This document shows positions 8,651 to 18,992 of a stretch of DNA of 28,785 bases, in pieces. The position numbers and the translations under genes are program-made. This DNA is from a virus. The stretch covers positions 1 through 28,785 of the IMG/VR virus record IMGVR_UViG_3300031972_001235. One strand, given 5' to 3'. Within the stretch, counting starts at the first letter, position 1; each line of letters starts with the position of its first letter. The notes beneath the pieces are model-generated. The model worked only from the letters and a program-made list of their open reading frames with translations, had not been told where the DNA came from and ran no database searches.

Positions 8651-8860
8651 TTATTCTGCCTTAAAAGCATTAACTGCTGATTCAACATAAGCTAAACTAT
8701 ACTTTACACCTGTACGCTCTTCAATGGCTGCACGGATATAATGTATGTCTGAGTGGTATAAATGCAATTTACTAAAAGTATCTGTTTCTAGTGCTTTGTA
8801 GAATACAGACAAGATATCTTTTTCTTGTGATAGTTGTACAGAAGACGGCATAAATGTCAA
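8651..8860 (-). CDS. first gene of the leftward operon, unknown function
   Basis: This is a 69-aa, probably helical protein (SVFYKALETDTFSKLHLYHS and the C-terminal SLAYVESAVNAFKAE). The ATG at 8860 gives 69 aa; an ATG at 8851 three codons later is an alternative. It is the first gene after the consensus leftward promoter at 9066-9093, leaving a leader of about 200 nt that contains the 13-bp repeat arrays. No family recognised. By position a small early regulator or a virion gene is equally possible. Confidence 0.5.
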   Translation of the reverse strand: MTFMPSSVQLSQEKDILSVFYKALETDTFSKLHLYHSDIHYIRAAIEERTGVKYSLAYVESAVNAFKAE

Positions 8861-8931: not shown

Positions 8932-8970
8932 AGGATAAGTGTATCACTTAAATGTAGCATTTAAATGTAT
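8932..8970 (+). repeat. array A: three contiguous 13-bp repeats
   Basis: Units are AGGATAAGTGTAT (8932-8944), CACTTAAATGTAG (8945-8957) and CATTTAAATGTAT (8958-8970), in perfect 13-bp register. The core CAYTTAARTG is a 10-bp dyad; in the third unit it is a perfect palindrome, CATTTAAATG. Weaker copies lie at 8906-8915 and around 8974-8986. The array lies in the untranslated leader of the leftward operon. Likely binding sites for a dimeric regulator or replication initiator. Confidence 0.65.
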
Positions 8971-9021
8971 ATACTATTTAAGTAATATATTATTTTAGAG
9001 ATTATTTATATATAGGTTAAA

Positions 9022-9060
9022 CATCTTAATGTAACATCTAAGTGAAGCATTTAAGTGTTA
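9022..9060 (+). repeat. array B: three contiguous 13-bp repeats at the leftward start site
   Basis: Units are CATCTTAATGTAA (9022-9034), CATCTAAGTGAAG (9035-9047) and CATTTAAGTGTTA (9048-9060), in 13-bp register and with the same core as array A, 90 bp away. The last unit covers the predicted transcription start of the leftward promoter (-10 at 9066-9071), an operator-like position. With array A it brackets the AT-rich core 8971-9021. Confidence 0.65.
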
Positions 9061-9065
9061 ATACT

Positions 9066-9093
9066 ATTATAGTGATTTTAAAGGCTGTGTCAA
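9066..9093 (-). promoter_or_regulatory. consensus sigma70 promoter for the leftward (virion) operon
   Basis: On the minus strand TTGACA (9093-9088) is followed by a 16-bp spacer and TATAAT (9071-9066), exact matches to both sigma70 hexamers. The predicted start is near 9059, inside repeat array B. It would be read by host RNA polymerase, and no phage RNA polymerase gene is visible here. Confidence 0.85.
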
Positions 9094-9108
9094 CTAAAAA
9101 TATTCATA

Positions 9109-9127
9109 TTGTAACATTCTGTAACAA
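9109..9127. promoter_or_regulatory. 19-bp operator-like dyad
   Basis: The sequence TTGTAACATTCTGTAACAA is a dyad of the form TTGTnACA-n3-TGTnACAA, the size and symmetry of a repressor or activator site. It lies just upstream of the leftward -35 box and overlaps the weak rightward -35 candidate TTGTAA, so one protein could control both directions. The binding protein is not identified. Confidence 0.5.
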
Positions 9128-9181
9128 TAAGTGATAGTAATACATACGCCGTTACCTACATATAGTATGCAACACCCCTTG

Positions 9182-9198
9182 ACACCACATCTTGGTGT
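9182..9198. promoter_or_regulatory. dyad ACACCA-n5-TGGTGT
   Basis: A 6-bp inverted repeat with a 5-nt spacer (ACACCA at 9182-9187, TGGTGT at 9193-9198). It is followed by two further small hairpins, CAGGT/ACCTG (9240-9255) and ATCT/AGAT (from 9256). It could be an operator or the start of a structured leader; no T-run follows, so it is not an intrinsic terminator. Confidence 0.3.
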
Positions 9199-9302
9199 GT
9201 GACGCGTGTTGTGTACAGCATATAGAATGATGTGGTTAACAGGTCTAAAAACCTGATCTGTGTGTTTAGATATGCATATAACGTGGTGACGGGGGGTGGC
9301 CC

Positions 9303-9374
9303 ATGCCCGGCCCCTCGTTCGCTACTCGGCGGCGGAGGCGGTTACTGTTTGCCCAGACTCTGCGGAGAAGGTGA
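9303..9374 (+). CDS. candidate 23-aa Arg-rich micro-protein
   Basis: ATG CCC GGC to TGA encodes 23 aa with RRRRR at residues 9-13 and RRR at the C-terminus; eight of 23 residues are Arg. A G-rich run (GGGGGG, 9291-9296) lies just upstream and could act as a weak ribosome site. It is the first reading frame after the divergent control region, the position where lambdoid phages place the Arg-rich antiterminator N. There is no sequence homology to N to claim, and an Arg run can arise by chance in CGG-rich DNA. Confidence 0.2.
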   Translation: MPGPSFATRRRRRLLFAQTLRRR

Positions 9375-9863
9375 AGCCTTCCTAACCATTCTCGGCGACC
9401 TTATGGCAAATGTCGCGGTAGACATGCATGCCGCCTGCGCGAAGCAATTCAATACGCAGCAAAAGCAGAAAGCGTTAGAGGAATAAGCTATTCATTGACG
9501 CGTTGCCTAGCGGTTCTTGCGGGGTTGTTAACAGCAGGGAAAGAGAACGTGAGGTCGGAGCTTATACCTACGCGATAGCCCCCGCAGCCTAGCCTATGTG
9601 CCCCCTACTAATACCCGTCCCAAATACCCCTACCACCCTCTGCGTGGTGGTGGTGGTCTATACATCTCATATGCTATCACGCCAATTGTGGTTCCTACTG
9701 CTGCCCCTGTACATGTATCAACTGCGTTAGCGTGCCGCACCCTAAACGTAATCACTTCAATCACTTAGCGTTGATTTATGCCAATGCCGTCGTTGTTTGC
9801 TGAATTTAGTTATTGAAGTTTCTGACGTGAGGGGTTAGATTTTATTCATCGAGACAAACAGCA

Positions 9864-10156
9864 GGCCCAAGCCTAGCTACTCGGTAGGCCCACCCAAGAT
9901 TAAATACTTGGGCGAACGGTCTCCCCACCTAAAGGGGTTAATCGTGGACAACGTCTGGCAACCGCCCGGCCTGAGTTTACGGTGACGATTAGGCGACGAA
10001 CTCGCCAACCCAATCGGGCACAAAACAAAACACAAGACAACCAAACCGGGCTTGCTGTGCTATGGCGGGCCAACCCGCACGCCTTAAAGGTGGGCACGGG
10101 AGTTCGGGGCGGTTGCCTGTATATGCTTCCCACGACGGGGGGCATACTAGGCAACC
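9864..10156 (+). ncRNA. candidate structured RNA with many consecutive hairpins
   Basis: Within ~290 nt I can pair: GCCTA/TAGGC (9871-9889); CCCAAG/CTTGGG (9893-9912); CCCC/GGGG (9923-9937); a closing stem TAATCGT (9939-9945) with ACGATTA (9985-9991) enclosing ACCG/CGGT (9961-9983); GGCGA/TCGCC (9992-10006); CCC/GGG (10009-10018); GCGGG/CCCGC with a CCAA loop (10065-10078); and the long hairpin 10111-10156. Nested and consecutive stems of this kind, with no plausible gene on either strand, point to an RNA. I do not recognise a class. A weak promoter (9813-9841) would start transcription just before it. Strand is inferred from the flanking rightward genes. Confidence 0.4.
10111..10156 (+). promoter_or_regulatory. 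long hairpin in the leader of the 49-aa gene
   Basis: GGTTGCCT (10111-10118) pairs with AGGCAACC (10149-10156). After a small internal loop TATGC (10122-10126) pairs with GCATA (10142-10146), and CCC (10129-10131) can pair with the G run at 10137-10141. The hairpin ends just before the Shine-Dalgarno AAAAGGAC of the gene at 10175. It could protect or regulate this mRNA, or be the 3' domain of the candidate RNA upstream. No U-run follows. Confidence 0.5.
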
Positions 10157-10174
10157 ACACAAAAGGACAAAACC

Positions 10175-10324
10175 ATGACAACATACAAAATCATTCGCTT
10201 TCGCATGCAGGGTCGGCCTCGCACAATGCAACGCGGGCTAACGCTGGAGGAAGCACAGGCACACTGTCGCCGCGATGATACGCGAAAACCCGGTGTCTGG
10301 TTTGACGGATACGAAGCCGAATAG
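10175..10324 (+). CDS. 49-aa conserved phage protein ([10 protein letters not shown] / WFDGYE type)
   Basis: The ATG at 10175 has a clear Shine-Dalgarno (AAAAGGAC). The protein starts [17 protein letters not shown], continues with [14 protein letters not shown] and ends VWFDGYEAE. This arrangement (a basic beta-hairpin start, L-T-L-E-E-A-Q-x-H-C, ending W-F-D-G-Y-E) is a small protein family widespread in phages of many hosts, with no known function. It is the first confident gene of the rightward operon. Confidence 0.75.
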
Positions 10325-10367
10325 CTAGATGGCACGCTGCAACAATCCCACAAATAGGACAATCAAA

Positions 10368-10565
10368 ATGAAACTAAGCCACAAACGTGTCGGGGGTATC
10401 CGATTCCTACGGATTGGCCGACTACAACTGTCGTTCTGTGTATGCCGACGCGCACCAAAGGGTCGATATCCGCAGGGGGATGATATGGCGCGGGGGACTG
10501 CGAACGCGGCACTCACACAAATCAGCGCAAGACGCCCTTCGACAATAATGTCTGGATATAGATAA
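10368..10565 (+). CDS. 65-aa conserved basic phage protein
   Basis: An ATG at 10368 preceded by AATAGGACAAT starts a 65-aa protein whose N-terminal half, MKLSHKRVGGIRFLRIGRLQ then LSFCVCRRAP, matches a recurring small phage protein pattern (RVGGIxFxRxGRxxxSF). The C-terminal half is unremarkable. A frame beginning at 10329 would add 13 residues but lacks a ribosome site. Function unknown. Confidence 0.6.
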   Translation: MKLSHKRVGGIRFLRIGRLQLSFCVCRRAPKGRYPQGDDMARGTANAALTQISARRPSTIMSGYR

Positions 10566-10611
10566 CAACTGAATAGGTCCAATGTTGGACCAGCCCACAA
10601 GGAGCTTACAA

Positions 10612-11220
10612 ATGTACAAGCAAGACGTGACAGCCATTGAAGCCCACGTATCCACTGGGCCGCGCGCCCTCATGGATGTAATCGAATTTGTGTTGTGTAC
10701 GATACAAGCAGGGCTTTCGACAGTACGGCTACAGAGAGATGACATAGCTAAGCAGGGTCTCACGTCGCGCTTTCTGTGGGGCAAGAAAGCTGAGGGCCTT
10801 GCCTATGCATATGACAACGCCGAACCCCTATGGGCCAAGCTGTTACAGCTAAAGGAGGGTGGCAGGGCTGACCCGGAGAACATCGCGGAAGCTACGTTGC
10901 TCCTGATGGACGTGCCAAATCTAGGAATGGTGAAGGCCAGCTTTGTCCTACAATGCATTGGCTTTGATACCGCTTGCATTGATTCCCATAATCTGAAGCG
11001 CCTAGGGCTTAAAGAAAGTGCTGTAAAAGTTAACCCCAAACTGTCTGCCCAAACCAAGAAGGTTAAGGTGTTGGATTACGTCAAGCTATGTCAACAGCGC
11101 GGCACAGAGTACTGGTGGGATAGCTGGTGCAAATATGTGGCGGGAAACCGGGCCAACCGCTACTTGACCTCGGCTGAGGCAGTTTCAGCATATCACGTTG
11201 ATTGCATCTTGATGCGCTAG
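10612..11220 (+). CDS. HhH-GPD-like DNA glycosylase-related protein
   Basis: The start at 10612 follows a strong AAGGAG; a frame from 10582 would add ten residues. The 202-aa protein has a helix-hairpin-helix (LMDVPNLGMVKASFVLQCIG, ~99-118) followed by ACIDSHNLKRLG (~121-132). This mirrors the endonuclease III/MutY order LPGVGxxTAxxxL ... VDTHVxR, with Asp124 in the place of the catalytic Asp. The catalytic Lys of bifunctional glycosylases does not align, and no C-terminal iron-sulfur cysteine cluster is evident. It may be a base-excision glycosylase acting on modified or host DNA, or a non-catalytic DNA binder. Confidence in the fold is moderate, in activity low. Confidence 0.55.
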   Translation: MYKQDVTAIEAHVSTGPRALMDVIEFVLCTIQAGLSTVRLQRDDIAKQGLTSRFLWGKKAEGLAYAYDNAEPLWAKLLQLKEGGRADPENIAEATLLLMDVPNLGMVKASFVLQCIGFDTACIDSHNLKRLGLKESAVKVNPKLSAQTKKVKVLDYVKLCQQRGTEYWWDSWCKYVAGNRANRYLTSAEAVSAYHVDCILMR

Positions 11221-11243: not shown

Positions 11244-11522
11244 TTGTCAAATTATGATTACTACCACGATCAGGGCACCATGATCTATGGCAATGGTGAC
11301 AAATACGTTGGGGAATTTAGGGGAGGTATCCCCGACGGGCAGGGCACATATACGTATGCCAGCGGCGAGGAATATATCGGTGAATTTAAGGATGGCAAAT
11401 TCAACGGACGGGGCACCTTTATCTATGGCAATGGTGACAAATACGTCGGTGAATTTAGGGAATGCCGCGAGGGAAAGGCGCAAGTGTTAAGGCTACTAGT
11501 GCAGAGTAAGCCCGCGAGGTAG
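11244..11522 (+). CDS. MORN-repeat protein
   Basis: Three 23-residue MORN units are visible (each G-T-x-x-Y-x-x-G-x-x-Y-x-G-E-F), followed by an abrupt non-MORN tail. I choose the TTG at 11244 because AAAGG lies 7 bp upstream; a TTG at 11202 (overlapping the previous gene) and an ATG at 11280 are alternatives. MORN repeats are beta-hairpin scaffolds that bind lipids or proteins and are more typical of eukaryotes and bacterial surface proteins. Units 1 and 3 are almost identical at DNA level over ~40 bp (from 11283 and 11421, 138 bp apart), pointing to recent duplication. The C-terminus (after ~11462) looks truncated. Confidence 0.65.
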   Translation: MSNYDYYHDQGTMIYGNGDKYVGEFRGGIPDGQGTYTYASGEEYIGEFKDGKFNGRGTFIYGNGDKYVGEFRECREGKAQVLRLLVQSKPAR

Positions 11523-12171: not shown

Positions 12172-12302
12172 AATTAACCAAACTTGCCGTCAAGCGACTG
12201 GAGATGCAGTATTTCAACACGCTAGCCCGTTATCTTGACTGGGAAACGGCTACCTACACGGCTAGATACATGGCCAAAGCGAAGGAGGCAGAAATAAAGT
12301 GA
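12168..12302 (+). CDS. 44-aa hypothetical helical protein
   Basis: ATG at 12168 overlaps the previous stop (ATGA) and its own stop overlaps the GTG start of the GcrA gene by 4 bp, so it is coupled on both sides. The product (MKLTKLAVKRLEMQYFNT to AKAKEAEIK) is a basic, all-helical peptide. No function known. Confidence 0.45.
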   Translation: MKLTKLAVKRLEMQYFNTLARYLDWETATYTARYMAKAKEAEIK

Positions 12303-12673
12303 GAATTTCTAACACATGGACGGCGGACAGGACAGAGCAGCTTCGGCTGCTTTGGCCTAGCGCCATGACCGCAGTGCAAATTGCAAGGCGGTTAAACCTA
12401 CCCAGCAAGAATGCTGTCATTGGGAAGGCACACCGGCTGGGTCTGCCACTGAAGGGCAAGGCGTACAAAGTAGTGCCGCCGATGGCGGACAGTCTGTTTG
12501 CTGCGCGAGCAGCGAAGGCAACAGCGTGCGTCTGGCCAATAGGAGACCCCACAAGTGAAGACTTCCACTACTGCGGGGAGAAACCTGTAGAGGGCAAGCC
12601 GTATTGCCAACACCACTGCAACGTGGCTTATAGGCCAGACTCACGTAAGAAGCAAAGGGCGCTTACGTATTGA
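12299..12673 (+). CDS. gcrA: GcrA-family cell-cycle regulator homologue
   Basis: Starting at GTG 12299, the 124-aa protein shows the GcrA layout. The N-terminal helix-turn-helix (residues ~7-49) begins with WTADRTEQLRLLWPSAMTA and contains KNAVIGKAHRLGL. A linker follows, then the C-terminal cysteine/histidine part: CVWPIGDP, FHYCGEKP, GKPYCQHHCNVAY (~83-118). In Caulobacter, GcrA binds sigma70-RNA polymerase and acts at promoters, often with CcrM-methylated GANTC sites. A phage copy could redirect host transcription or time the phage programme to the host cell cycle. It is the strongest host marker in the window (alphaproteobacteria). No CcrM gene is present here. Confidence 0.88.
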   Translation: MRISNTWTADRTEQLRLLWPSAMTAVQIARRLNLPSKNAVIGKAHRLGLPLKGKAYKVVPPMADSLFAARAAKATACVWPIGDPTSEDFHYCGEKPVEGKPYCQHHCNVAYRPDSRKKQRALTY

Positions 12674-12681
12674 TAATACGC

Positions 12682-12767
12682 GCGGGCGTGGTGGAATTGG
12701 TATACACAACAGACTTAAAATCTGTCGCCGAATAGGCATGCGGGTTCAAGTCCCGCCGCCCGCACCA
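12682..12767 (+). tRNA. tRNA-Leu (UAA)
   Basis: This is an 86-nt cloverleaf. The acceptor GCGGGCG pairs with CGCCCGC, the anticodon stem ACAGA/TCTGT encloses loop CTTAAAA (anticodon TAA), the long variable arm (CGCCGAATAGGCATG) is typical of Leu, the T-arm is CGGGTTCAAGTCCCG, and CCA is encoded. It reads UUA codons and sits between gcrA and the zinc-protein gene. Confidence 0.95.
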
Positions 12768-14949: not shown

Positions 14950-16029
14950 ATGAGTACGTTGCCGCGTTACGTTAAAAAGATTACCCGCAAGGACAGGACT
15001 GTACACTACACTTACAATCCACCTAAACGGTTTATTGATCTAGGTCTCGTGGTGCGGCAGCCGCTCGCCTCAGACCTAAGAATAGCTAGACGACTAGCCA
15101 ACGAACTGAACGAAAAGATTGACGCATGGAAAGACGTTTACGATGCACAGAAACGACTGACAGCTACTGCTACGATTGAGCAGTTAATAGTCCACTACAA
15201 GCAGTCCTATTCATATAAGAAGTTGTCAGATAAATCTAAGAAGGAGTATGCGTATATATTTTCTATCTTAGATGTGGACCTGCGTCGGTATCGTATAGGT
15301 AAATTATCTGTGCAGGATGCTCGCCACACATACGACTTGTGGCTCCAGCGGGGTGTGTATCATGCCAACAAAACATCTCGCATAGCAAGCCTCTTGTTTA
15401 ATTTTGCGGTTGACCATGAGTATATACCAATGAACCCGTTTGGTAGGCTACAGAGACAGACGCCAGAACCACGTAAGGTTGTGTGGTCAGACGAAGAGGT
15501 GCGTAAGTTTCTAGAGGTAGCTTATAGTGACTTTAAGTGGCGTAATCTAGGTCTGATAGTTCAGATGACATACGCTTGGGTTCAGCGCGTGGGAGACATA
15601 CGAGTGCTCAAGTGGGATAGCATCGACTGGGATAAACAAACTGTCACGATACAGCAGTCTAAGCGTAGGGCTACAGTCCACATACCCATAGGGGATGACC
15701 TCTTCCACATGCTCAAACAGCAGTGTGCCGATTTTGATTTTCAGGAATACGTCGCCCCCAAAGTCAAACCTAGGCGCGGGGTACACCATCCCTACAGCAT
15801 AGACAATGTTAGCTGTGAGGTTAGGAGGGTTCTTGCAGCGGCAGACTTACCATTAAACTTACGTGTCAGTGACTTACGTAGGACTGGCACTACTCAGATG
15901 GTGGAGGGGGGCGTGTCTATGACCTCGCTCATGCAGGTAACAGGACACGTCAATCCGTCATCCCTAAAACCCTATATGAAGAATACCTTGAGAGGTGCAA
16001 CTGAGGCTCTTAACAAGAGAGTATACTGA
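14950..16029 (+). CDS. int: tyrosine recombinase (integrase) with atypical box II
   Basis: This 359-aa tyrosine recombinase has a core-binding domain (~74-165) and a catalytic domain (~175-350). Visible catalytic residues are R213 (WVQRVGDIRVLKW), K238 (QQSKRR), R310 (SDLRRT), H333 (TGHVNPSS) and nucleophile Y342 (LKPYMKN). The box II His is replaced by Ser307 (SDLRR for HDLRR), as occurs in some podoviral integrases; catalysis may be altered but is not excluded. It abuts the primase (their TGA/ATG share one base at 16029). An integrase implies a potential for lysogeny, but no attP or repressor was found here. Confidence 0.88.
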   Translation: MSTLPRYVKKITRKDRTVHYTYNPPKRFIDLGLVVRQPLASDLRIARRLANELNEKIDAWKDVYDAQKRLTATATIEQLIVHYKQSYSYKKLSDKSKKEYAYIFSILDVDLRRYRIGKLSVQDARHTYDLWLQRGVYHANKTSRIASLLFNFAVDHEYIPMNPFGRLQRQTPEPRKVVWSDEEVRKFLEVAYSDFKWRNLGLIVQMTYAWVQRVGDIRVLKWDSIDWDKQTVTIQQSKRRATVHIPIGDDLFHMLKQQCADFDFQEYVAPKVKPRRGVHHPYSIDNVSCEVRRVLAAADLPLNLRVSDLRRTGTTQMVEGGVSMTSLMQVTGHVNPSSLKPYMKNTLRGATEALNKRVY

Positions 16030-18719: not shown

Positions 18720-18916
18720 TGTCCCCTGTAGCTGTTTTCGTGTCGGATTATAACCACAGAAAAGCTTTAGTTTATAAGCTGAAGGAAGGTTGTTATGTAG
18801 AATTTTATCTACATGAACAAAAGGTTAGGGAAGAATACTATATGGGCAAGTCACAACAGTACCATGAGACGGCAGCAGAAAACTACGTATTAGGCATAAA
18901 AAACCTAGGCCCTTAA
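18716..18916 (+). CDS. small conserved phage protein of unknown function
   Basis: This 66-aa protein overlaps the endolysin by 4 bp (ATGA). It has VAVFVSDYNHRKALVYKLKE then YVEFYLHEQKVREEYYMGKS and a helical end, an alpha/beta pattern. The stop codon's last A (18916) is the first base of tRNA-Arg. No function known. Confidence 0.55.
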   Translation: MMSPVAVFVSDYNHRKALVYKLKEGCYVEFYLHEQKVREEYYMGKSQQYHETAAENYVLGIKNLGP

Positions 18917-18992
18917 CTTCCGTAGCTCAGTTGGATAGAGCAACAGACTTCTAATCTGTGGGTCGCAGGTTCGAGTCCTGCCGGGAGTACCA
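18916..18992 (+). tRNA. tRNA-Arg (UCU)
   Basis: This is a 77-nt cloverleaf. Acceptor ACTTCCG/CGGGAGT (one T-G wobble), D-arm GCTCAGTTGGATAGAGC, anticodon stem CAGAC/ATCTG with loop reading TCT, and T-arm GCAGGTTCGAGTCCTGC; CCA is encoded. It reads AGA codons. Its first base is the last base of the upstream stop codon, so it lies directly in the operon. Confidence 0.95.

Follow-up and report, generated by a model that had tools for sequence, protein, structure and literature searches.

An apparently undescribed three-way junction RNA ahead of the first rightward gene in HMO-2011-type marine phages

The IMG/VR record IMGVR_UViG_3300031972_001235 is a 28.8 kb viral contig, analysed here over its full 28,785 nt and referred to as the window. 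The DNA polymerase it encodes shares about 60% identity with those of Puniceispirillum phage HMO-2011 and Roseobacter phage CRP-1, so the window is assigned to the HMO-2011-type marine phages, a group reported to dominate and to be widespread in the ocean (PMC9038755). Leftward genes stop near 8860 and rightward genes begin at 10175, with a divergent control region between them (Table 1). In this region, 9255-9312 carries CTGTGTGTTTAGATATGCATATAACG...GGGGGGTGGCCC, like a motif found at the same place in four related loci (L096, L212, L218 and L241), and is likely a shared control element. A perfect match to a sigma-70-like promoter (TTGACA, 16 nt, TATAAT) lies on the - strand at 9066-9093, facing the leftward genes, and a 47-nt imperfect direct repeat (8940-8986 and 9030-9076) overlaps an inverted repeat in AT-rich control DNA. 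A coding explanation for 9849-10174 was rejected, with stops in all six frames and no protein families. ORFs in 9864-10156 had no family match, including a 98-aa ORF (9982-10278) without a Pfam match, in agreement with a sequence-only reading of that segment, which had seen no plausible protein there.

Table 1. Positions of the features discussed in the text (window numbering)
Feature	Position	Strand	Basis or detail
Candidate promoter/start region	9813..9851	+	TTGAAG 9813-9818, 29 nt, ATCG 9848-9851; putative
Proposed leader RNA, first rightward operon	9847..10174	+	putative limits
Possible pairing of the leader 5' end	9847..9984	+	CATCG 9847-9851 with CGGTG 9980-9984
Possible outer stem P0	10038..10115	+	CAACC 10038-10042 with GGTTG 10111-10115; encloses the module
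Conserved three-way junction RNA module	10046..10107	+	covariance models, covariation in relatives
P1 outer stem	10046-10053/10100-10107 and 10055-10061/10093-10099	+	
P2 hairpin	10065-10069/10074-10078	+	CCAA loop 10070-10073
P3 hairpin	10080-10084/10088-10092	+	
Strong hairpin between module and ribosome site	10111..10156	+	-29.0 kcal/mol, pair probability 0.997
First rightward gene, 49 aa	10175..10324	+	AAAAGGA ribosome site 10161-10167, ATG 10175
Integrase	14950-16029		

The sequence-only reading had described 9864-10156 as unusually densely folded, with at least eight hairpins, and both points are borne out. The segment folds at -124.5 kcal/mol (z = -4.7), none of 200 dinucleotide shuffles was equally good, the z value is the lowest among 59 equal-length segments over both strands of the contig, and more than eight helices appear in the minimum-energy fold. 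For comparison, 293-nt segments across the contig have a mean z of -0.67 on the + strand (sd 1.46). A low z alone is little proof, because the place had been picked by eye and strong hairpins lower z on both strands. The hairpin noted just before the ribosome site is real (9 + 10 bp) and ends 4 nt before AAAAGGA; as far as seen, it is private to the window phage. A nested stem in which TAATCGT/ACGATTA closes over ACCG/CGGT fared less well: the four strings are present (at 9939, 9985, 9961 and 9980, respectively), but the listed pairs have probabilities of at most 0.006, and the fold favours instead the pairing of 9941-9949 with 9975-9983. The G+C rise that had been taken as a sign of selection on an RNA exists, but it sets in near 9250 and extends over coding DNA as far as about 15 kb, and it is therefore not a mark of RNA selection.

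At the nucleotide level, a search of 9100-10600 against phage records returned no significant match. Because leader nucleotide matches were absent, relatives were fetched by protein, using the DNA polymerase and the product (202-212 aa) of the gene at 10612. The window leader showed no significant local DNA similarity to any fetched locus, so it is the covariance model that carries the homology of its RNA. The relatives L082, L086 and L088 share a plan in the DNA that precedes the first rightward gene, consisting of a long stem, a CCAA-loop hairpin and a second short hairpin, also carried by L097 and L126. A model built from an alignment of six members (R1) found the RNA at the same position, mostly at E = 1e-5 or better, in loci fetched via the first-gene product of L200, a protein unrelated to the earlier queries. 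Model R2 scored the window at 36.8 bits (E=1.7e-9). The hold-out model R3, from which the window and its closest two relatives (L082 and L115) were withheld, placed the RNA at 10044-10110 on the + strand (24.2 bits, E=1.1e-4; runner-up place in the window, E=0.16) and recovered L082 at 3e-13 and L115 at 5e-10; the short calibration of R3 makes these E-values rough, while place, strand and context are right. Scanning with Rfam 15 at gathering and permissive thresholds gave two tRNAs and otherwise chance matches in the window, with none in its control region, and no match in the relatives scanned, where sub-threshold matches in L082, L086 and L096 look like chance or overlap tRNA.

Covariation among relatives upholds the suggestion of an undescribed, conserved phage structured RNA, though not in the stems first listed: comparative support is overwhelming for 10046-10107 and absent for the nested stem, and the best-supported structure, the three-way junction, had not been singled out. 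In alignment A10 (51 distinct sequences; a counting alignment that, like A5, was partly fitted to the structure), 97.5% of cells are paired, compared with 75.3% in shuffles, which ignore phylogeny, and 30-52% when slid; compensatory double changes occur in 22 of the 24 base pairs. The same number of pairs shows compensatory changes in a 27-member alignment, where 96.4% of cells pair as against 67.7% in shuffles; P3 is among the covarying stems, although the model that made this alignment lacked P3. Alignment A9 (MAFFT, 22 members) is blind to the structure and has compensatory changes in 20 of 26 pairs. G-U cells outnumber A-C mismatches by 190 to 4 (101 to 2 in a separate count), and one U-G pair is kept in 50 of 50 sequences. 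With G-U so far above A-C, the transcribed strand is taken to be the + strand, acting as RNA. The same asymmetry speaks against a DNA element (a replication origin, packaging or attachment site, with hairpins formed as single-stranded DNA or cruciforms), which the divergent control region and its adjoining repeats would suit but which is extremely improbable. Comparative sequence evidence thus identifies the + strand of 10046-10107 as an RNA three-way junction of a phage-specific family, kept by selection on base pairing. It is almost certainly a conserved RNA that has not been described before, because no catalogued family matches it and its paired bases change in step across relatives.

The window is the most divergent member of the family, being G+C-rich, with a UUAAA-like P3 loop in place of CUUGA and a start codon 66 nt after the module; the divergence of the P3 loop is partly common to L082. 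The CUUGA loop is common in the family and not universal, being absent also from L115. The possible outer stem P0, which is also read in the sequences of relatives, forms in the minimum-energy fold of a chain ending at 10115, and it excludes the 10111-10156 hairpin. GGTTG at 10111-10115 could pair either in P0 or with the 3' arm of this hairpin, a possible co-transcriptional switch in the modelled folds.

The RNA was found in 51 distinct sequences of HMO-2011-type phages. Two cultured Roseobacter phages carry it unannotated, CRP-9 at 56061-56130 and CRP-207 at 54690-54759, in both cases directly before the record's first rightward gene. The host of CRP-9 is Rhodobacteraceae FZCC0023 and that of CRP-207 is FZCC0040, and because these phages have named hosts, transcription, fold and effect are directly testable. 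A narrow-pattern search of IMG/VR gave 47 contigs, and the new loci among them pass a rescan with the model (one is cut by the contig end). The model search did not find the module in HMO-2011, CRP-1, CRP-2, CRP-345, CRP-603, HTVC033P or CRP-235. Many close relatives are without it, including ones with the same operon plan, so the module is not essential. In 85,000 prokaryote genomes there were two pattern matches, both of which fail the model, and a protein scan gave no relatives. By word search, neither PMC9038755 nor the CRP-9 paper (PMC8528129) mentions noncoding or intergenic sequence or a repressor. Such an RNA, conserved, unannotated and heading their early operon, would add a control element that present annotations do not show. 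Near the record end of CRP-207 (L314), about 27 nt after the RNA, stands an unannotated 36-aa ORF, MFNVSTKKVGGIRFL..., which resembles both a small window ORF (10369) and the L082 first gene. In L200, the module is directly followed (2420-2500, - strand) by a degenerate, incomplete copy of its own 5' half.

In relatives, the leader that ends in the module apparently starts at ACATCGAAAGCG or TTCATC, 240-570 nt before it. An alignment of eight sequences shows covariation in upstream stems as well, one case being ACCG/CGGU versus a compensated alternative in three sequences (columns 360-376). The window has CATCG at 9847 and, 29 nt before it, TTGAAG, an arrangement like the ACATCGAAA motif that heads relatives' leaders; a spacing of 28-30 nt, judged by eye, recurs in L141, L243 and L218. 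Pairing of this CATCG with CGGTG is suggestive only: several relatives that have CATCG at the 5' end also have CGGTGA close to the 3' module, and the A6 consensus fold pairs columns 68-72 with 494-498. The motifs TTGCCTAGCGGT and AACGTGAGGT occur at similar spacing in the window (9503-9514 and 9546-9555) and in its nearest relative L082 (2651-2662 and 2701-2710), in DNA that is otherwise not alignable between the two. The window RNA may start further upstream than 9847. A pattern scan for TTGCCTAGCGGT gave a single chance-like match inside a coding stretch.

Our preferred reading, about equally likely to be right or wrong, is that the module forms the 3' part of a structured 5' leader of 300-650 nt. 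Transcription would start at the first early (rightward) promoter, and the leader would stop just short of the first gene's ribosome site. Such a leader would act in cis, in general control or protection of the early operon, regardless of which gene comes first. Its invariant loops and junction (GCUAA, GCCAAC, CUUGA and AUGGG, of which CUUGA is not universal) could present a surface to a host or phage factor, with RNA polymerase, the ribosome or an RNA-binding protein as candidates, and the stems would drift freely. About 37 different first-gene N-termini stand after the RNA, and the start codon lies 21-37 nt behind it in 40 of 47 scorable members, which together favour a general cis leader over a gene-specific switch. 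Antitermination, mRNA protection, ribosome recruitment and processing into a trans RNA are possible modes of action. Several observations weigh against a cis-acting leader: many close relatives are without the module, and some have a different, complex-looking module in its place; the 66 nt before the window's start codon contain a private hairpin; the short distance to the ribosome site may be due only to genome compactness; and in the single-sequence fold of 9847-10175 as a whole, a different pairing of P1 is favoured by 1.6 kcal/mol.

The constancy of the RNA in front of varying genes would suit a noncoding RNA acting in trans on host or phage targets, 300-650 nt long, thus in the size class of GOLLD or ROOL, and processed from the leader or separately transcribed, which the first gene merely adjoins. 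The upstream parts are long and modular, with some covarying stems, and a TTGACA box between RNA and first gene in L192, L200 and L285 is possibly a second promoter. However, the tight spacing to the start codon in most members is not what such an RNA would predict, and no terminator-like U run follows the module in the members read, which leaves this alternative possible but on the unlikely side.

The put RNA of phage HK022 reportedly consists of two stem-loops, with one copy per early operon. The present RNA resembles it in being short, structured and located close to where early phage transcripts begin, and its position, its conserved loops and junction beside free stems, and its independence of the first gene would fit a put-like antiterminator, in which the nascent RNA binds RNA polymerase and read-through of terminators along the early operon follows. 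It differs in being a three-way junction at the 3' end of a long leader. Moreover, one significant copy was found in the window (both strands, filters off) and one each in CRP-9 and CRP-207, rather than one heading every early operon as in HK022. With its absence from many relatives that have the same operon plan, antitermination of this kind is unlikely.

P4 CI RNA and c4 of P1 and P7 are immunity RNAs that lie in the leader of an early phage operon. A role in superinfection immunity or in a lysis-lysogeny switch would be in keeping with this position, with the integrase of the window, and with the lack of a recognised CI-like repressor among the window proteins tested. However, CRP-9, a complete genome, carries the RNA and has no integrase match (PF00589), so the RNA is not restricted to temperate phages and a lysogeny-only role is disfavoured; integrase-bearing HMO-2011 and CRP-1 are without the module, and the Rfam collection, which includes c4, gave no c4 match in the window or the relatives scanned. 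An immunity RNA is therefore highly unlikely.

The purine riboswitch aptamer is likewise a three-way junction, with a conserved junction and loops and variable stems. The likeness extends to the CCAA and CUUGA loops, which could kiss by CAA:UUG in most members. Differences are that the window, L082 and L115 are without this complementarity, that Rfam gave no match, and that the downstream genes share no pathway.

The leader zone is modular, because some relatives are empty there and others carry a different module. In L107 and L141, which are without the RNA, the same ATCATCGAAACAAAC motif is followed within a few dozen bases by the start codon, an arrangement that reads as the empty state of the zone. 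A different conserved, noncoding-looking module, ACGTTATTTGACAATGGC ... GGGTGGCAC..GGCAAA, stands before the first gene in L206 (2240-2630), L208, L220, L226, L231 and a fragment of L228, at the place of the relatives' three-way junction, and is possibly another undescribed RNA. Another recurrent element, GAGCCTCGCATGAGTTT ... GAAACGACAGG ... GAAACCGACTTGACA, precedes the first gene in L087 (250-470), L096 (4620-4850) and more than 12 further loci, and is followed by a long hairpin. Positions 9849-10043 of the window have no detectable homologue among the fetched loci and may be a swapped-in module of this zone; comparison lends its stems no support apart from the suggestive CATCG/CGGTG pairing.

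GOLLD and ROOL are large RNAs with ornate structures that occur in phages and yield no protein (PMC12286853). The present RNA shares these traits but adjoins the first early gene as a leader, with a 62-nt three-way junction as its conserved core, and cmscan with Rfam found no GOLLD or ROOL match in the window or the relatives scanned. With leaders of 240-570 nt and some covarying stems in relatives, a large ornate RNA is plausible. The broader proposal of a new class of large, multi-domain phage RNAs, with swappable domains and a common 5' head, reprogramming host RNA polymerase, ribosomes or defence, is doubtful. If true, it would mean that, in one of the most common ocean phage groups, an RNA by itself reprograms the host as infection begins.

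Elsewhere in the window, 12299-12670 encodes a homologue of the GcrA cell-cycle regulator (PF07750), with small genes on either side. Genes for tRNA-Leu(TAA) and tRNA-Arg(TCT) lie at 12682-12767 and 18916-18992, and three 69-nt in-frame repeats at 11266-11460 encode MORN-like GxGxYxGEF units.
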